NCBI GenBank assembly: GCA_019751875.1
Contig: JAIEMV010000010.1
Coordinates: forward strand, 53,638-117,637
Length of the DNA stretch: 64,000 nucleotides
Source of the DNA: Hyphomicrobium sp.
Lineage (GTDB): Bacteria > Pseudomonadota > Alphaproteobacteria > Rhizobiales > Hyphomicrobiaceae
Reading direction: 5' to 3'
The translations under genes were made by a program, and so were the position numbers. Below, piece by piece: positions 34,428-64,000 of this stretch. Position 1 is the stretch's first letter; every line of letters begins with the position of its first letter. Under the pieces are notes generated by a model, which was not told where the DNA came from, did no database searches, and saw nothing but the letters and a program-made list of their open reading frames with translations.

Positions 34428-34437
34428 GAAATCGCAA

Positions 34438-34688
34438 GTGGCGCAGGGCGACTCCGCTGTTGCGGAGCCGGCCGCCCTGCTGGACTGGAGTGGCGCAGGA
34501 CGACTCCGCTGTTGCGGAGCCGGCCGCCCTGCTGGACTGGAATGGCGCAGGACGACTCCGCTGTTGCCGAGCCGGCCGCCCTGCTGGACTGGAGTGGCGC
34601 AGGGCGACTCCGCTGTTGCGGAGCCGGCCGCCCTGCTGGACTGGAGTGGCGCAGGGCGACTCCGCTGTCGCGGAGCCGGCCGCCCTGC
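34438..34688. repeat. Tandem array of a 52-bp palindrome-containing unit, about 4.8 copies
   Basis: Unit gtggcgcagggcgactccgctgttgcggagccggccgccctgctggactgga starts at 34438, 34490, 34542, 34594 and 34646, exact 52-bp period, near-identical copies. Confidence 0.95.
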
Positions 34689-53104: not shown

Positions 53105-56100
53105 TTACGGACCTATAGCTAAGCTTGTTGCGCCCTGAGAGTTGAACACATCCAAATCAAACCGCTCGCGGACTACGACAAGCGCTCGTCCACGTAGATA
53201 CTCATCAGGACTTTCGTGCGCCGCAAGCCAGGAAGGATTTTCTTGCATGATTTTGCGACGAGATTCTTCGTCTTCGTTAAGGTCACTAACGCACACGTAG
53301 ATATGCCCCAATATGTTTGCAACACCTGTTGAAGGTTCGCCGGCGTATGCCTGCCGCAGTTTGGCCGTGGCTTTTATGTCGACAACTAGCATTCTATTGT
53401 CATGCTTTTCGTCCAGTGATGTCAGGGCGAATATCGGGATCTCCGCGCCTGATACCTCTATCGCTCCGGAAAAGCCTTTCAGCCCCCGGACTGAAGCGAT
53501 GGAAGACGCAGTTCTCGAAGCAGATCGGCTGCGATAGCCGCTATGGGATCTAAAAAAATGATGCTCCGTCGTGTAATCGAGAGTATGGATGATAATTAAA
53601 TCGCCGGCGATCTTCTCCTGCAATATCTTCGTCAGCTCTTCGTTCAGCTTTTCTGCCGAAACTTCAATTTTTCTTCCGGCTCTGTTCAAAAGTGCTCCAA
53701 AGATAGATCTGTCCTCAGCAAGTCCAAGTCCCTCACCATACGCCTCACCCCATCCTCCGAAAGAAGTGTGTTCCTGGCTGATAAAGGCGCTTTTGTCATC
53801 AACCTGATTGTACCCCAGTGTTCTGACGCCCTCTAACCTGCCGACGTCCACAATTGCGCTCTTCCATTCCAACAGGGGTCGCAGTCGGATGGTGCTTCTA
53901 TATCTCTCGATAAGCTCCTCCCCGAAGCGGCTCACTTTTTCCTGACACAAGGGTGCCGCCCGAGTTCTTTCGAGTTCCGCCCGCTGATCAGCGCGGCGCG
54001 CAGTTTCCAGAAGATCTCTCAGGGTTGGCACCTCGTGACGTTGTGCCTCTGTGAGTATTCGCGACCAATCGGCAGATCTTTCTGTTTCTATTTCATTCAG
54101 AATTTCGGCTATTATTCCCGTCGATACTGATGAAAGAGTACGACTGTGAGAAATTCTGACGTCAAGGGCGGGCTGCTCCCGAAGCGAGCTCAGAATACTC
54201 AAAGATTTAAAGATATAGCCCCGCGCCAGTTGAGCATGGCTTGAAATTGATCGCACTTTCCCGTCGGGTATCACATCCCACATCGTCCAACCCCAGTAAT
54301 CGTCTGGATCCGAGCCGCGTATATCCCTCCAGGCCGCAGATAGATCATCCATCTGGTTTGGTAATCCATTCGACAACGCCGCTAATATTTCAAGATCTCC
54401 CTCTTGGATTCCATTCTTTAGAAGCTCAGCTATTGCATGGCCAATCAAAGCGAGCAGCACCTGAGTTACTCCTCGTCGCAAATCGTCCGACGCCGCCTCG
54501 TACGCGACCTGACGGCTTAGCGCATTTTTTTGGTTGCCCAGCTCCTGTGGCTCAGTTGCCCTTGAAATCTGCAGCTTCAGCATCTCTGAATCTGCGCGAT
54601 AGGCCTCAGATTCTAGTGATCTTGAGATATCTCCGAGAGCATCAACGATCTCTCTTACGATCTTTAGATCGCGAGTAGCCGACGCTTGTTTTGCGACTAA
54701 CATGAGCGATCGAACTGCAAACAGCAGGAACTCGAGGAAATCGTTTATTTCGTCGGCGCCAGTTTCATTATTTTGTAACGCCGGCTCTATTTGAAATTTA
54801 GCAATCTCGTGGACGTATCGCCAGGATCTCTCCTTTAGCAGTTCTTCAACCGTACCCTTCTCTCTTTCTGCCACCCAATACAGATAATCAGCTAAAACTA
54901 TGAACTCCTGGAAACAATAATGATCCCGCACCTGAAAAGCTCTGGATGCGATTGCAAATGGCAAATAGCTAACCGAAGTGGCGATTGATCTGTTTTCGGT
55001 CTTCACAGCAACTGGCAATATTTCACGCCAGTCGTCTCTTAAGCTGTCGATCTCGACCCAGCCGCCTCCCCAACCATTCCGCTCTTTCCGCGCCATATCG
55101 GGTTTATAGGTAGCTCCCATATTTACCAGAGCCTCAAGGAAGATCTCTGCGATTTCGATAAATAACTTCGAGAACGTGTCCACCGCTCCAGGCGACTCCG
55201 CTCTTAAAGCTGCGATGAAGCCATCTTTCGAAGCTTGCAATTCCTGTGTGAATAGATCTGACGCCTTGTGGTTATTTGATAGCTTGAAAACAAAGGGGAT
55301 AGCGCCTGTCAGCTCCGCATTCATCTCATCTCGCTCGAGCAATTGAGCCGGCACTGCAAGCAATGCACGCTGTCGTGCACGGAACAGGGAACTGCTGGGC
55401 ACATCCTCTTCGAGGCGCTTTAAGAGATAGATTGGCCGCGGCTCATGATCTTCGGTGATTGCCTCTTTTGTCTCAAGAGCATCATCAGCTTTAGCCTTCA
55501 AATTGGCCTTCTTACCACTAAGGCTGAACCCGAACTGTGACTGTGCATAGAGGTCCAACCGGTCTAGGACTTTTTTAAGCTCTTCAATGTGGATGTCCTG
55601 AAGCCATCCTTCGTCGGGATGCTCGAGTATCTTGTAGTTGTTGATCTTTGAAATCCAAGACGCTGACGGAACATATCGGAGCTGTTGCAGTGGGCCGCCT
55701 GACTTCATGTAATTCAGCAGCAGTGCGTCCCCTACTCGCCGCCTCGCGGACAATAAAATCGTGTTGTAAAGGCGCTCTCTTAGCTGTTTCTTTCGATTAG
55801 ACTCCATCAACGCTGGGTCAAGCAGATTTCTTATTACACCCGAGAAAGCGAAAAGAGTAGTCAAGGCCAAAATGGCTGCCAAGAGCACACTCGGCAGTCC
55901 AGGTTTAGCCAAAATAAATCCAAGTGGAATCAACGTAATTGCAACGCCGAGAGGCCAAATCATACTGATCTTTAAGAGCAGCCGCTTTTGTTCAACTTCG
56001 TAGCCACCTCGGATCGTTTCAGCAACAAAGATTAGAAGCGCGACAATGATCACTGCCAAGCCTGTGAAGCCGGCAGCCACACTGCTGTCGAGATTAGTAT

Positions 56101-56596
56101 CTGCAATTTCTTTGTACCAATTCGCGATCGTGAAGGGGTCATACCCGTCGCCCATTCGGCTTTTCAGCGGCGCAAAGAATAGTGCAATCAACAAGAGAAC
56201 GATCGCGAGCGATTTGAGTGATGGTTCTTCGAAGCGCTTGCGGCGTTCCGTCTGGATCCAGTCGACGCACTTTTCGACTGCTCGATGACATCGCAATCGA
56301 GCGCTGCTGCGATATTTTAGGATCTTATAACGTGTTGGTATTGATTCCGTGGCGTTGGTGCGCGTGTTTGCTTTTATCTCGGCATCAATTTGCCCCGACA
56401 ACCAATGTGATTTCCAGCGCAAATGGTAAATGGACAATAACGCAATCACTAATGCGAGCGCGCCAGCAACTAGCAATAGATATATGATCTTTGCATTCGC
56501 AAAAGCCCAGCAGTAATCACCGCAAAGAACAGGTCCACCAATTAGGACCGCCACGCTATGCCTTATCTCTGAAGCTAACGTTCTGATCATCCCCAC
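53105..56596 (-). CDS. Large uncharacterised multi-TM N-terminal protein (1163 aa)
   Basis: Uninterrupted 3.5-kb ORF; N-terminal hydrophobic helices 'LALVIALLSIYHL', 'LAIVLLLIALFFAPL', 'GLAVIIVALLIFVAETI', 'LGVAITLIPLGFIL', 'LLAAILALTTLFAFSGVI'; long soluble C-term with no family I recognise. Confidence 0.8.
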   Translation of the reverse strand: MGMIRTLASEIRHSVAVLIGGPVLCGDYCWAFANAKIIYLLLVAGALALVIALLSIYHLRWKSHWLSGQIDAEIKANTRTNATESIPTRYKILKYRSSARLRCHRAVEKCVDWIQTERRKRFEEPSLKSLAIVLLLIALFFAPLKSRMGDGYDPFTIANWYKEIADTNLDSSVAAGFTGLAVIIVALLIFVAETIRGGYEVEQKRLLLKISMIWPLGVAITLIPLGFILAKPGLPSVLLAAILALTTLFAFSGVIRNLLDPALMESNRKKQLRERLYNTILLSARRRVGDALLLNYMKSGGPLQQLRYVPSASWISKINNYKILEHPDEGWLQDIHIEELKKVLDRLDLYAQSQFGFSLSGKKANLKAKADDALETKEAITEDHEPRPIYLLKRLEEDVPSSSLFRARQRALLAVPAQLLERDEMNAELTGAIPFVFKLSNNHKASDLFTQELQASKDGFIAALRAESPGAVDTFSKLFIEIAEIFLEALVNMGATYKPDMARKERNGWGGGWVEIDSLRDDWREILPVAVKTENRSIATSVSYLPFAIASRAFQVRDHYCFQEFIVLADYLYWVAEREKGTVEELLKERSWRYVHEIAKFQIEPALQNNETGADEINDFLEFLLFAVRSLMLVAKQASATRDLKIVREIVDALGDISRSLESEAYRADSEMLKLQISRATEPQELGNQKNALSRQVAYEAASDDLRRGVTQVLLALIGHAIAELLKNGIQEGDLEILAALSNGLPNQMDDLSAAWRDIRGSDPDDYWGWTMWDVIPDGKVRSISSHAQLARGYIFKSLSILSSLREQPALDVRISHSRTLSSVSTGIIAEILNEIETERSADWSRILTEAQRHEVPTLRDLLETARRADQRAELERTRAAPLCQEKVSRFGEELIERYRSTIRLRPLLEWKSAIVDVGRLEGVRTLGYNQVDDKSAFISQEHTSFGGWGEAYGEGLGLAEDRSIFGALLNRAGRKIEVSAEKLNEELTKILQEKIAGDLIIIHTLDYTTEHHFFRSHSGYRSRSASRTASSIASVRGLKGFSGAIEVSGAEIPIFALTSLDEKHDNRMLVVDIKATAKLRQAYAGEPSTGVANILGHIYVCVSDLNEDEESRRKIMQENPSWLAAHESPDEYLRGRALVVVRERFDLDVFNSQGATSLAIGP

Positions 56597-57761: not shown

Positions 57762-58886
57762 ATGCCTGCAAAAACTCCTCCAGATCCTGTGAAGCCTTCA
57801 GAGGCTCCGACCGGACTGACCGATACCGCCTTGGACTTTGCGCGAGCGGCGCTCGCGCCCAACACATTGCGAACCTATCGGGCTCAGTGGCACCTGTGGA
57901 CCACCTACGCACACGCAGCGAACGCGAGCGCGTTGCCGGCCGATCCTGAGACCGTCGCAAATTGGCTGGCGCACCGCGCCGCGAGGGTCGCACCATCAGT
58001 CGCGAGGGTCGCAGTTGCCTCCGACAGACGACATGACGGCGCGTCAGTCGCGACATTGCGCACAGCCCTCGCCGCTATTCGCTTTGCACATCTGGCTGCG
58101 GGGCAGTCTTTCGATGCCCGGCACCCCGCCCTCCAGCTCGTCCTGCGCGGCATTGCTCGCACCACGACCTCCGCCCCACGCCAGGCCGCCCCTCTCGGCC
58201 CGGACCTGCTTTTGAGCATCCTTGCGACCCTCGGCAATTCTCCGCGCGATGTTCGCGATGGTGCCATCCTGGCGCTTGGCTACTGCTTCGGCTGTCGGAG
58301 ATCCGAGTTAACGGGGCTCGATCTCGAGGAGATCGGTGAGGGCACGGGGGCTCTTCGTCTTGGGCCCACCCGACTGGAGATCCGCCTCTGGCATGCGAAG
58401 ACCCGACATGCTCGAGCAGACGCCGAGACTATGGTCGTGCCACGTGGTCCCAACCGAGCCGCCGTCGCGGCGATCGTGAGATGGATACGGCTTGCTGATG
58501 TTCAACGCGGCGAACCGGTACTGCGACGGGTTCTCAAGGCGGAGGGGATCTCACCCAATCGCCTCGACCCCCAGAGCGTTTCCCTCATCATCAAAGACCG
58601 GGTCCGCGAACATCTGTTGGCGCAGGGTGCCCCGGAGAGTGTCGCAGCGAAGGTCGCGCGTGGATATTCGGGGCACAGCCTCCGAGTTGGGTTGGCTGTC
58701 GCGGCCGCGGAGGCCGGCGCGAGTGTGCTTGCGATCCAATCCGCACTTGGCCACAGATCGCCCGCGATGGCTGCGCGATATGCCAGCGCCGCCGAAAAGT
58801 CTCGCATGAGCCCGCACTTCCTGCCTGGTGTATCGCTGGGGCGAAAACGCACTAAGGGGCAGATCGGGAAGGGGTCGGGGCAATGA
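57762..58886 (+). CDS. Tyrosine-type site-specific integrase/recombinase
   Basis: 'AILALGYCFGCRRSELTGLDLEEI' and C-terminal 'GYSGHSLRVGLAVAAAEAGASVLAIQSALGHRSPAMAARYASAAEKSR' (HxxR...GH...Y). Confidence 0.95.
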   Translation: MPAKTPPDPVKPSEAPTGLTDTALDFARAALAPNTLRTYRAQWHLWTTYAHAANASALPADPETVANWLAHRAARVAPSVARVAVASDRRHDGASVATLRTALAAIRFAHLAAGQSFDARHPALQLVLRGIARTTTSAPRQAAPLGPDLLLSILATLGNSPRDVRDGAILALGYCFGCRRSELTGLDLEEIGEGTGALRLGPTRLEIRLWHAKTRHARADAETMVVPRGPNRAAVAAIVRWIRLADVQRGEPVLRRVLKAEGISPNRLDPQSVSLIIKDRVREHLLAQGAPESVAAKVARGYSGHSLRVGLAVAAAEAGASVLAIQSALGHRSPAMAARYASAAEKSRMSPHFLPGVSLGRKRTKGQIGKGSGQ

Positions 58887-59248
58887 AGGTTCTCAGCGTT
58901 CGCCAGCCCTGGGCATGGGCCATTATTGCCGGTCACAAGACAATCGAGAACCGGAGGTGGTCGACGACCTACCGAGGGCCTCTTTTGATCCACGCTGGAC
59001 AAAAGATGCGGATCCAAGACTACAGGCGATTGCTCGACTACGGGGACGAAGACGGCTTTCAGGTTCCCGAGCGGGAAGATCTGCACCTCGGCGGGATTAT
59101 CGGCAAGGCTGTGCTGGTCGACATTGTGACCAAAGCGAAAGGAAACCCTTGGTTCGAAGGACCGTACGGCTGGTGTCTCGTCGAGCCTCGCAAGCTGCCG
59201 TTTCGGCCCTTGCTCGGAAAGTTGCGGTTGTTCGAGGAAGCTGAGTGA
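58883..59248 (+). CDS. ASCH-domain protein
   Basis: 'MKVLSVRQPWAWAIIAGHKTIENRRWSTTYRGPLLIHAGQK...GGIIGKAVLVDIV...WFEGPYGWCLVEPRKLPFRPLLGKLRLFE'; ATGA overlap with the integrase stop. Confidence 0.92.
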   Translation: MKVLSVRQPWAWAIIAGHKTIENRRWSTTYRGPLLIHAGQKMRIQDYRRLLDYGDEDGFQVPEREDLHLGGIIGKAVLVDIVTKAKGNPWFEGPYGWCLVEPRKLPFRPLLGKLRLFEEAE

Positions 59249-59360
59249 GCCACGGCATCGTTCGCTTTTCTATAGCGGTCGCCTGACAATCCGAATTTTT
59301 GGCGAGGCGAAGTGCGCGGCTGGTGGTCGCTCTCCATATGTAGGGCCGCAGGGCCTCTCC

Positions 59361-59480
59361 CCTGTAAGGTCACTGGCTCCCCTGTAGGGTCACTGGCTCC
59401 GCTGTAAGGTCACTGGCTCCCCTGTAAGGTCGCTGGGTCCCCTGTAAGGTCACTGGCTCCCCTGTGAGGTCGCTGGGCAG
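59361..59480. repeat. Six tandem 20-bp direct repeats (iteron-like), plus a degenerate seventh to about 59500
   Basis: cctgtaaggtcactggctcc at 59361, 59381, 59401, 59421, 59441 and 59461 with 1-5 substitutions, exact 20-bp period. Confidence 0.95.
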
Positions 59481-59516
59481 CCCGCCAGGTCGCTCTCTTC
59501 TCGGAGCGAATGTCTA

Positions 59517-60797
59517 CTAAGCCTCACAGACTGTCGCGAACTCTACTGAACCTGCTAACGGATGCTCGCCCCGCCTGAGAACTTCCAGTTTTCGCTGGAG
59601 CTGTTCCTCCATGATCTCGGAAACGCGCGCACTGCAATCTTGCCGGACGATGACGCTGTCGTGGATCGGCAGAGCAACTATCCCGCAATCGTGGCAACGG
59701 TCCAGCACGTCAAGGAGTAGTTCAGAATCCAAGAACTGCAGCCTCCGGCCGACGCCGCTGTAGAAGTACGCACTGATCGGTCCATGTCTCAGCTCAAGCG
59801 CACGTAACAGGCGCCGTGCAGTGTACTCGTCGAAGTCTGGATATTTATCTGGATCAGCGATGTTGAAGACCAGCGCTTTCGCGGCTTTCGGACGTGAATT
59901 GGCATTGATCATAATTTGCCACGCCATTTTGACGAGGCTCCGATCCCAACCCTCCATTCTATAGCACCTCCCGGGAGATACCCCGCCACAACACGCATAA
60001 AGAAGTTGGGCGTGTAATTCCGCATAGTCGAGCTCGACGGTCGGACTTTCATCAATAGTCAATTGTGCTCGTCGGTATTTCGGCAGGTGCTGCCAGAACG
60101 CTCCATACAACCTGCCGCCATGCTGCCAGTCCTCATTGAAGACCCTGTAAGTGGCTCTATTTCCCGGATTGACGATCTGGCCGTCTAGTTTCAAACAGGG
60201 TTTCGACAAATCGAGAGCGGCATCCGTCGATCCAAGTACCGCGTTACGGAAAATTTCATTGTGCCGTCGCATGCGGCACCGCATGGCGTTAGTGTGATCT
60301 GTGTCGTCGTAGTCTATCAGGTGCTTTGCCTTGTTCTTTAACTGGATCGTCTCGTGCTTCTCACTTGCTGTGACTGATGACCAATTCAACGGCGCGCTTA
60401 AGAGCCTGTCCGTCGCTCTGATGCGGCTCTGCCAACCGAACGATGAACGTGAAGCACGTTCTTCTTCGATCATTCCTTTGCTTACAAGCAGGTCAACCAA
60501 CGCAAGAATTCGACGATAGGTGTATTGGGGTCCGAGGTAGCGGCGCTTGTCTGAGTAGAATTGCTTGTTGCGCGAGTAGCTGACCCATACGCCTACACTG
60601 GAAGCAGCAAAAAGACAGGCAATCATGCCTTGCAGCGCTCGACTATTCGGCCCCCCGAACAGACCCAGCGTTTGCAGGTCGTTCTTCGTCACTCCGGACC
60701 ATTTCAGAGACAGAGGCATATCGCTGCCATTGGCTCCCGGATTGAACGCATCATTGCTGTCGCCGAAGTACATTGCTTCGCCGTCCAATCTGTTCAT
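59517..60797 (-). CDS. Uncharacterised mobile-element protein with motifs resembling single-subunit (PolA/T7 RNAP-like) polymerases
   Basis: Motif A-like 'VELDYAELHAQLLYACCG', motif B-like 'RSLVKMAWQIMINANS', motif C-like 'ALPIHDSVIVRQD', in the correct order. Confidence 0.6.
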   Translation of the reverse strand: MNRLDGEAMYFGDSNDAFNPGANGSDMPLSLKWSGVTKNDLQTLGLFGGPNSRALQGMIACLFAASSVGVWVSYSRNKQFYSDKRRYLGPQYTYRRILALVDLLVSKGMIEEERASRSSFGWQSRIRATDRLLSAPLNWSSVTASEKHETIQLKNKAKHLIDYDDTDHTNAMRCRMRRHNEIFRNAVLGSTDAALDLSKPCLKLDGQIVNPGNRATYRVFNEDWQHGGRLYGAFWQHLPKYRRAQLTIDESPTVELDYAELHAQLLYACCGGVSPGRCYRMEGWDRSLVKMAWQIMINANSRPKAAKALVFNIADPDKYPDFDEYTARRLLRALELRHGPISAYFYSGVGRRLQFLDSELLLDVLDRCHDCGIVALPIHDSVIVRQDCSARVSEIMEEQLQRKLEVLRRGEHPLAGSVEFATVCEA

Positions 60798-60855
60798 TTC
60801 TGTTCTTGGATGATTGGCGAGCGTGCGAAACTAATCAGCACGCTCGCCTGCAAAC

Positions 60856-61068
60856 TTATTCGTCGGTTCTAGTTGCCATCCACTCAGCAACTTCAGTCCA
60901 ACGCCACACCCGTCTCCGCAAGCCAATCCGAATCGGACGCGGAAAAAGGCCATCTCTAATCCACTCGTAGATTGCAGATTTCGATGCAGGGATAATTTTG
61001 CGGAGGTCCGCAAGCGTCAGTAGTCGCTCTTCTGGGAAGTTATGGTCCCAGTGACCGCAGTTAGGCAT
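60856..61068 (-). CDS. AlpA-family HTH regulator/excisionase-like protein
   Basis: 'LLTLADLRKIIPASKSAIYEWIRDGLFPRPIRIGLRRRVWRWTEVAEWMATR'. Confidence 0.92.
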   Translation of the reverse strand: MPNCGHWDHNFPEERLLTLADLRKIIPASKSAIYEWIRDGLFPRPIRIGLRRRVWRWTEVAEWMATRTDE

Positions 61069-61158: not shown

Positions 61159-61582
61159 ACCGTCAAGGTCCGATGGATGATTTAAGATCGCAAACCAGCT
61201 ACTATTCGTCGCCTTCGACACCAGGTTGAAGGCTTCACTGCTTTACGTGATGAATAAGTGTCAGACGAATCGCCGAAGTGCAAGTTTGTTCTTTATGGAC
61301 CACCGTCATTCATTCTCTCGAACAATGATTAGTTCTCTTAGCGTCCTCGACCATCGATCTCGGGATTACGTGTCGTCCCAGAAGCGGACATCGGGAAGTG
61401 TCGCCTGCAACAGCGCCGGTGATGTCAGTTCTCAGAGGCTTAGCGGACACGTCAGTTGGCTCGCAGAAGGCAGCAAGTGACCTTAAGCAGACTATTTCCT
61501 ATTACCGCACAGGGAGCCTAGTCTCGACTAGGCACCGAAGCTGCAGAAAGGCCTATTAGCGCCGCCAAATGAGATCCCAGCG

Positions 61583-62014: not shown

Positions 62015-64000
62015 CTAAAAACCTACGTTGCCAACTGGTAGAGACAGTTGAGCAGAGAATCCCAGGTCGCGTTCTCTTCCCGAGGTAATCCCGTCGATCG
62101 TTCCTTCGAGGGTGAGTCGGACATCGTTTGCGATGTCGAGCGTGAACCCGCTTTGGAAGCGAGCACGCACATCGCCGTCGTCGTCGCGCGGACCACCACT
62201 GTCTATTTCAAAAAGTTCTGCCCTTTTGAAATCCCAAATGCCTTGGATGCTAAAAAATGGCTGCAACAACACATCGCCGGGGAAGGCGAATGTTGTGCGG
62301 AACTTGGGCCCAAATGTCATTCGGCCAAGGCTTGCTGTCTGTCGCTCGATGAGCAATCCAAAACTGTCACGGTAAGCCCTTTGAGTCTCTTGAAAGAGAA
62401 TAGCACCGGCATGTGGTTGAATGTCCCAGCCGCCTGCTTTGAAATCACCGGTCAATCTCAGCCGGGCAAGGAATCTTTCAGTCGAAAAAGTGTCACTGTA
62501 AGTATCGAACGGTAATATGTCGTTGGCCGATGTGCCCCATGCGACGCGTCCATCGAGCAGTATGTTAGCTCCGATCCGCGCAACCAGGTATGGTCCGGCG
62601 AGCCAGCCCGATCCCGATATGGAGAAATCGGCATCGCAATCGCTTGCCTCTGCAAAATCGTACTGCAGGAGGAATCCTGCTATGACGTCTTGCGAGACAG
62701 CGTAGTCGAGACCAACATAACCGAGCGCAAGACTGCCGTCCGTGTCTGGCCCGTCCAGCGTCGTCCACTTGCCCTCTGTCCACAGGCCCCACTGGCCTAG
62801 CGTCAGGCCAACGCGATGCAGTTCGACATTTGAGGACCCTTGTTCCTCCATACCGTTTCCGGAGAGCGGGATGAGGCGAGTGCGTGCGCTTCGATCAATC
62901 AATCTGCCGACAAGTTCAGGCTCAGAGGCCGTTATTTGATCTGCGCGCCGAGTTAGAAAGTTAGAAATGATACCTTTCGTTCGGCTTTGAACGAATAATG
63001 ATGTCCGTCCGCTTGTGAACGTGCAGATAATGCTCTCGCCCGCTTCAAGAGTTATATTCGCCTGGCGTTGCGACAGCGAAGTCACAGAATTAGATAGTCC
63101 TGACTCCGTACACGCCAGGGACGTCAATTCCCATCCACTATTTTCGTTTTCCAGAATCGTATGCGAACCGGGCGACATATACAAAGTGGCAGATGCTGTA
63201 TTGCCCGCCGTGGTCAGGGTCAGACCTGACAGTATCGGAGAGGGCGACGAATACTCGAATGTTTCCTGTGCTCCATCTGGAGAATCGATGACCTTCACGA
63301 TTGTGACCGCTCCAGACACTGCGAGCCCGATGATGGCCGTTGGCGATGCGGCATTACCATTGCCACTTGCATCGCTCGCCGAGTTGGCAGGCAACATTAC
63401 CGAAATATCACCCCCACCATCGGGTACAATTGAAAGCACATAGATAGAACTGCCTCCACCAAGCGCCGATGCAGTTCCGTTGATTACTGTGAAATCCGCA
63501 GCGATCAATCCATTGACTGGCACGCTGAACGACACTGTGATGACAAACGGCTCCAGGGTAGTGATGTTGGCCGGTGCGGTGAGATTGACCGTCGGCGCGC
63601 CGTTGTTGAGATCATAGGCTTCGTCGACCGGCGGCTCCGTAGCCGGGAGCGGATTGTTGGCTGTGTCAGTGATGGTGGCGGCAGCGGCCAGATTGAGACC
63701 GACCGCGCCGTTGAACGTTGCCAGGTCTCCGCCGGCAACGGTGATATCGTACTGGGTGGCGCTGACGGCGGAGACGGCTGTGATGCCGGCCGACGTGGTG
63801 CCGTCAACCGCGAAGTCGGCAGTATCGACGCCAAGCACGTCCTCATCGAACGTGGCGCGGAAGACCAGCGTGTCGGCGTTGGTCACGGCCCCGGCCGGTG
63901 ATTGCCGGGTGAACGACGCCAAGGTCGGCGCGCCGTTGTTGAGATCATAGGCTTCGTCGACCGGCGGCTCCGTAGCCGGGAGCGGATTGTTGGCTGTGTC
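62015..64000 (-). CDS. Autotransporter-type protein with Ig-like repeats and C-terminal beta-barrel (5' end beyond window)
   Basis: Repeated 'ADTLVFRATFDEDVLGVDTADFAVDGTTSAGITAV..' Ig-like module; C-terminal barrel 'LGYVGLDYAVSQDVIAGFLLQYDFAEA...GWLAGPYLVARIGANILLDGRVAWGTS' ending 'LSLPVGNVGF'. Frame continues past the ORF-track Met at 63922 to the window end. Confidence 0.88.
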   Translation of the reverse strand, partial: DTANNPLPATEPPVDEAYDLNNGAPTLASFTRQSPAGAVTNADTLVFRATFDEDVLGVDTADFAVDGTTSAGITAVSAVSATQYDITVAGGDLATFNGAVGLNLAAAATITDTANNPLPATEPPVDEAYDLNNGAPTVNLTAPANITTLEPFVITVSFSVPVNGLIAADFTVINGTASALGGGSSIYVLSIVPDGGGDISVMLPANSASDASGNGNAASPTAIIGLAVSGAVTIVKVIDSPDGAQETFEYSSPSPILSGLTLTTAGNTASATLYMSPGSHTILENENSGWELTSLACTESGLSNSVTSLSQRQANITLEAGESIICTFTSGRTSLFVQSRTKGIISNFLTRRADQITASEPELVGRLIDRSARTRLIPLSGNGMEEQGSSNVELHRVGLTLGQWGLWTEGKWTTLDGPDTDGSLALGYVGLDYAVSQDVIAGFLLQYDFAEASDCDADFSISGSGWLAGPYLVARIGANILLDGRVAWGTSANDILPFDTYSDTFSTERFLARLRLTGDFKAGGWDIQPHAGAILFQETQRAYRDSFGLLIERQTASLGRMTFGPKFRTTFAFPGDVLLQPFFSIQGIWDFKRAELFEIDSGGPRDDDGDVRARFQSGFTLDIANDVRLTLEGTIDGITSGRERDLGFSAQLSLPVGNVGF
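63591..64000. repeat. 333-bp (111-codon) in-frame repeat within the autotransporter gene; copies at 63591 and 63924
   Basis: gtcggcgcgccgttgttgagatcataggcttcgtcgaccggcggctccgtagccgggagcggattgttggctgtgtc occurs at both positions without visible mismatch. Confidence 0.95.

Follow-up and report, generated by a model that had tools for sequence, protein, structure and literature searches.

A probable integrated mobile element of Hyphomicrobium suggests a family-A counterpart of pipolins

The divPolA2 family of predicted family-A polymerases recurs in small integrative islands at tRNA genes, which gives these proteins a new context and suggests a role for them in copying elements of this kind. Our starting point was a 3.3-kb stretch (57762-61068) of Hyphomicrobium sp., which is very probably an integrated mobile element. 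All positions are those of the window, by which we mean the whole 64,000-nucleotide stretch of DNA that was analysed. The explanation that we favor is of a compact integrated element whose polymerase-like protein, called pol here, would copy the excised circle, perhaps from an adjoining repeat array. We regard the case for this explanation as evenly balanced. It suggests a variant of self-replicating integrative element, the family-A counterpart of pipolins.

Results and Discussion

Architecture and integrity of the element

The window makes up the right-hand end of a contig of 117.6 kb, from a genome of 3.72 Mb, and the element lies inside a low-GC region that runs from about 52.3 to 64 kb and extends to the contig end. 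Two gene pairs, int-ASCH and alpA-pol, are convergent, and the 268 bp of non-coding DNA between them contain the repeat array (Table 1). All four genes are intact, with zero frameshifts, and the active site of the integrase is complete, with R, HSLR, GH and Y readable in the sequence. The integrase and ASCH genes share 4 bp (ATGA); alpA and pol are read in one direction, alpA first, with 59 bp between them. The AlpA-type protein is probably an excisionase or activator, and the ASCH protein, whose family is common in phages, is a probable cargo or accessory gene.

Table 1. Positions of the features of the element and its flank
Feature	Position	Strand	Size	Evidence
Tyrosine recombinase (integrase, int), GC 65%	57762..58886	+	374 aa	PF00589 1.4e-11; PHROG_1 7e-19
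ASCH-domain protein	58883..59248	+	121 aa	PF04266 2.7e-6; PHROG_3193 1.7e-42
Direct-repeat array, six clear 20-bp copies plus one degenerate copy on each side	59337..59496			TRF, repeat families
divPolA2-family protein (pol), predicted N-terminal winged-helix domain plus predicted family-A palm	59517..60797	-	426 aa	PHROG_4756 4.5e-45; AlphaFold2; Foldseek
AlpA-type helix-turn-helix protein (alpA)	60856..61068	-	70 aa	PF05930 3.9e-11; PHROG_66 5e-10
Possible inverted copy, one only, of the array motif (15 of 17 core positions identical)	61464..61485	-		Inverted repeats

The earlier note on this DNA had listed five linked parts (recombinase, ASCH protein, 20-bp array, polymerase-like protein and AlpA-type helix-turn-helix), and Pfam, PHROG, TRF and the sequence itself bear out the presence of each. 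It had proposed to look for the five-part layout in other genomes, and conservation of that layout did not hold, as the array sequence is confined to this genome among 298 of the order, ASCH is absent from all the other pol loci examined, and no near copy of the whole element is known. ASCH was accordingly rejected as a conserved partner of pol. An AlpA-like protein is not a universal partner either: a small profile was positive only for L159, L165 and L234, and in the last of these the gene is far from pol.

GC content differs within the element, 65% for the integrase gene against 52-54% for pol and alpA, and this inequality means that the two halves may have different histories. Taken further, the stretch would be a static mosaic, in which int-ASCH and alpA-pol came from different elements, ended up adjacent in a horizontally acquired low-GC region and have ceased to act as a single mobile unit. 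Such a mosaic would fit a layout found nowhere else, as well as the nearest relatives of the integrase (L149 and L151, 44-48% identity), which have neither ASCH nor pol alongside. It would also fit the lack of att repeats. Around the element, where the earlier note had proposed to look for them, a repeat search gave none, and ungapped local alignment of the flanks in the window found at best 8 bp, within the range of shuffles, on a contig that ends 3 kb past the element; nor is there a tRNA near the element in the window. However, att sites outside tRNA genes that have short cores are easily missed, and a mosaic does not readily account for four intact genes with their catalytic residues, tightly packed and symmetrically convergent. 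The window pol falls in an 11-member clade (SH-aLRT 97, in a tree from a quick search with long branches), and another member of this clade, L159 from a Rhodospirillaceae MAG, carries an integrase, an HTH_17 gene of the AlpA type and pol as a compact unit; the three genes occupy about 4 kb, with tRNA-Phe on one side and a pyrD-like gene on the other. This is the gene set of the window minus ASCH and the array; a repeat of the tRNA end was looked for in L159 and not found. On balance we consider the mosaic somewhat unlikely, though a serious contender.

Further signs of movement were sought for the integrated element. No empty site was found in genomes of the same family, where the flanks are not conserved among relatives, and none of 16 whole contigs had terminal overlaps that would show circles. 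Because the genes of the element include no relaxase or type IV secretion gene, the label "ICE-like" is unsupported, and so is the replicating ICE-like island raised in the earlier note. Its broader suggestion of an integrative element with its own replication module survives in part: pol recurs in small integrative islands, with a recombinase in at least 9 of 20 genomes and 21 islands bounded by tRNA repeats, but no att repeats were found here.

Several other features of the same window were recorded. The low-GC region also encodes a 1163-aa protein with a probable membrane N-terminus (53105-56596), for which Pfam, NCBIfam and PADLOC gave no match; none of 102 other genomes of the family has a relative of it. 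At 62015-64000, an autotransporter-type gene with Big-like repeats breaks the assembly; it holds identical 77-bp copies at 63591 and 63924, and contig C20 starts with the same 77 bp. Elsewhere, at 34437-34688, a 52-bp unit is repeated in tandem almost without change (4.8 copies, 96% matches).

A chromosomal divPolA2 protein

The pol protein has no match in Pfam, and its shared domain is likewise unmatched in the other members of a 66-member family set; a PDB sequence search, profile included, also returned nothing. What pol and the five relatives tested do match is PHROG_4756, a family annotated as "unknown function". The reference divPolA2 protein AUR84708 belongs to the same PHROG (1.8e-91), and it is related to the window pol by BLASTP (2e-17) and to the family profile by hhalign (99.1%). 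This shared membership and homology identify the window protein as a chromosomal divPolA2. The group originates from a 2024 survey of phage polymerases, which described a palm with neither a thumb nor an exonuclease that could be recognised, an N-terminal domain that resembled no known one, and variable neighbourhoods, sometimes with several copies per phage (PMC11348598). The window protein shares the predicted PolA palm with its catalytic motifs and the lack of an exonuclease. It differs in setting, since divPolA2 was described in phages only, whereas the family of the window protein is found in small integrative islands and plasmid-like contigs.

New here are a family-A palm model that retains all of the catalytic motifs and an N-terminal domain that, in contrast to its description as unlike known ones, models as a winged helix. 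The AlphaFold2 model, made from the window protein with database relatives, has a pLDDT of 86 and a pTM of 0.87. Nearly all of its 50 best Foldseek matches in the PDB are family-A DNA polymerases (E from 7e-4, probability about 1), headed by bacterial Pol I, Taq, the apicoplast polymerase and Pol theta; the RNA polymerases of T7 and mitochondria come lower in the list. Most TM-scores fall between 0.25 and 0.44, which is what a reduced enzyme would be expected to give. The palm residues are D257 (motif A), R286 and K290 (motif B) and H379-D380 (motif C), and the family keeps these motifs as DY or DF, R-x3-K and HD, respectively; G228, R229, D257, Y279, R286, K290, H379 and D380 are invariant in the 66 members. 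Modelled alone, the 117 N-terminal residues form a predicted helix-strand-helix-helix-strand-strand order (pLDDT 88), for which the best Foldseek matches, weak ones (E from 0.011), are PadR, LmrR, MarR and DNA-bound Orc1.

Distribution of the family in islands and plasmid-like contigs

Homologues of pol are present in 25 of 298 genomes of the order by single-sequence search, and in 21 of 249 by a profile with a stricter cut-off. Of 20 such genomes, at least nine have a PF00589 match no further than 10 kb from pol, where about 0.76 would be expected. When viral and genome collections were scanned with pol or int as a single protein, nothing was found, but an alignment of pol succeeded, and its profile recovered 92 loci from GTDB genomes and viral contigs. 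Most of them come from Pseudomonadota; others are in MAGs assigned to Thermodesulfobacteriota, Planctomycetota and Nitrospirota. Twenty-one of the database loci are bounded by duplicated tRNA 3' ends (15-104 bp) that span 5.5-14.5 kb with pol inside, and a tyrosine recombinase is found in all 21. L231 (5.5 kb) and L226 (8 kb) are examples in which the att sites are clear. The other genes of these bounded islands are varied and include DRT-type reverse transcriptases, restriction-modification genes and MmeI/MrcB-like genes; capsid, terminase and relaxase families do not occur among their 25 most frequent families.

Within 8 kb of pol, the genes counted at 90 loci were serine resolvases (54), tyrosine recombinases (48, with our own profiles) and an unnamed family of about 250 aa that we call F2 (45). 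F2, which occurs in about half of the islands (for example L034:7956-8657 and L043:6996-7757) and is matched by neither Pfam nor PHROGs, is a possible replication partner. As a separate observation, the tree places the pol of record L222, labelled Mycobacterium sp. KBS0706, with Inquilinus (Rhodospirillales), and the organism name of this record may be wrong.

Members of the window's own clade extend this picture to plasmid-like contigs. A 5.6-kb contig of an Elstera MAG (L162:1-5634) encodes pol and, by Pfam, ParA; reading its sequence adds TACCGTTATACCGTTAT repeats, a toxin-antitoxin pair of the nucleotidyltransferase type and a probable ribbon-helix-helix gene. No replication gene other than pol was seen on this contig, which reads as plasmid-like. 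In L161 a relaxase lies downstream of pol. In the plasmid-like contig L158, a separate RepA_C gene adjoins pol, which weakens any claim that pol is always the sole initiator. A search of PLSDB for small plasmids with pol gave large records only.

This distribution bears on what the enzyme does. Motif C of the pol family is HDS or HDA, as in T7 RNA polymerase, rather than HDE as in Pol I. Together with the T7 and mitochondrial enzymes in the Foldseek list, this would fit a DNA polymerase for repair, an RNA polymerase, or a part in defense or counter-defense, rather than a replicase. The authors of the survey made a similar guess of repair or RNA synthesis: they noted that divPolA2 resembles RNA polymerases and that the phages which carry it have another, regular polymerase as well. 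The Barbaviruses that carry divPolA2 also encode a regular PolB (PMC11348598). Most carriers, however, are small islands, in which a repair enzyme is hard to explain, and the plasmid-like setting of L162 speaks for replication as well. In Shewanella phage KASIA, the pol homologue (L254:5518-6867) has a primase, an AAA ATPase and an RNA polymerase encoded nearby and lies upstream of the terminase. PADLOC has no match for pol that would point to defense. We judge these other functions quite improbable, and whether pol is the replication protein of its element we see as a balanced question.

The repeat array as a candidate origin

The core of the array (59357-59476) consists of six copies of CTCCCCTGTAAGGTCACTGG (TRF score 198, 90% matches). 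Its two-unit pattern is absent from every other genome among 298 of the order, and its uniqueness argues that it is not a chance repeat. An RNA structure was considered and rejected, as folding against shuffles gave none (z = +1.55), and without such a fold the array is most likely a DNA element. Iteron plasmids place the gene of a winged-helix initiator beside an array of direct repeats of about 20 bp. The same arrangement is predicted here, with direct repeats adjoining a putative rep gene as iteron replicons require, and with the difference that pol would add a polymerase domain; we know of no classical Rep protein that has one. The array is a candidate replication origin composed of iterons. 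That it is bound by pol is a tentative proposal, which we would not put as high as an even chance.

Arrays in relatives lend modest weight to the idea that a cis-acting site, for instance an iteron origin, lies close to pol. At 68 non-redundant loci (TRF score of at least 45), eight non-coding arrays occur within 2 kb of pol versus one at 2-7 kb (p about 0.012), although the near-pol arrays are unrelated in sequence to that of the window. Non-coding arrays with periods of 12-45 bp near pol in L180:11901-12030, L038:5669-5807 and L196:7907-8023 are candidates for the same role, while a repeat near pol in L231 was dropped as an origin candidate, since its reading frames suggest that it is part of a coding sequence.

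The possible inverted copy of the array motif (Table 1) is located 400 bp upstream of alpA and could be due to chance. The 113 bp of non-coding DNA that contain it (61376-61488) have no match in Rfam. They share 84% identity with intergenic DNA from a different genus of the family (G290 C6:12705-12819), at a place with neither pol nor an integrase nearby.

Comparison with known systems and a proposed mechanism

Pipolins are integrated elements that encode a DNA polymerase of their own together with tyrosine recombinases; they have att repeats at tRNA genes, carry variable cargo and include plasmidic members with relaxases and resolvases (PMC7385651, PMC9710591). The island family described here shares the polymerase of its own, the tyrosine recombinases, the variable cargo and, in 21 relatives, the att repeats at tRNA genes that bound pipolins and were not found in the window. 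The polymerases themselves differ: that of pipolins belongs to family B and its primer independence has been shown, whereas pol has a predicted family-A palm. No piPolB is found among the genes of the element, and the predicted fold matches PolA and T7 RNA polymerase.

The intY/alpA islands of Pseudomonas likewise combine a tyrosine integrase and AlpA with a lack of transfer genes, and they carry defense cargo, as do the larger relatives of the window element (PMC12595487). They are larger, they sit at tmRNA, and their transfer by a jumbo phage has been shown, whereas any such transfer of the window element is putative; the word "polymerase" is absent from the paper (PMC12595487). By analogy with these islands, the element might be a phage satellite, with a helper phage that triggers its excision and replication and packages it. 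Its size, its AlpA-type regulator, its lack of structural genes and a family shared with tailed phages are all consistent with a satellite, but it has no packaging or capsid-remodelling gene and no cos or pac evidence. We think a satellite unlikely, and it would in any case be compatible with the self-copying element that we favor.

For that element we propose the following course, of which excision, array binding, replication and transfer are steps that we infer. The AlpA-type protein would switch on or assist excision, and the tyrosine recombinase would excise a small circle. The divPolA2-type protein may then bind the array through its predicted winged helix, and its family-A palm would begin DNA synthesis there. 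In other words, the circle would be copied before it reinserts or moves, with ASCH traveling as an accessory gene.

A wider proposal, which we find plausible yet short of probable, is that the family supplies the replication protein for a superfamily, as yet without a name, of small integrative elements and plasmids, that one polypeptide unites a winged-helix origin-binding initiator with a family-A polymerase as a counterpart of pipolins, and that divPolA2 in phages is a spill-over. Searches limited to open-access full texts found no description of a family-A polymerase as a hallmark of bacterial integrative elements, and the novelty of family-A self-replicating integrative elements is thus provisional.

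A polymerase family that has so far been a phage orphan with a guessed role gains a context, and its function becomes directly testable. If true, the fusion of an initiator and a polymerase would be an unusual enzyme. With one candidate replicase, a candidate origin, an integrase and a regulator in 3.3 kb, the element would be near the minimum for a self-replicating integrative element. Its larger relatives carry reverse-transcriptase defense genes and restriction systems, and the replicon may thus be a vehicle for defense genes among Pseudomonadota.
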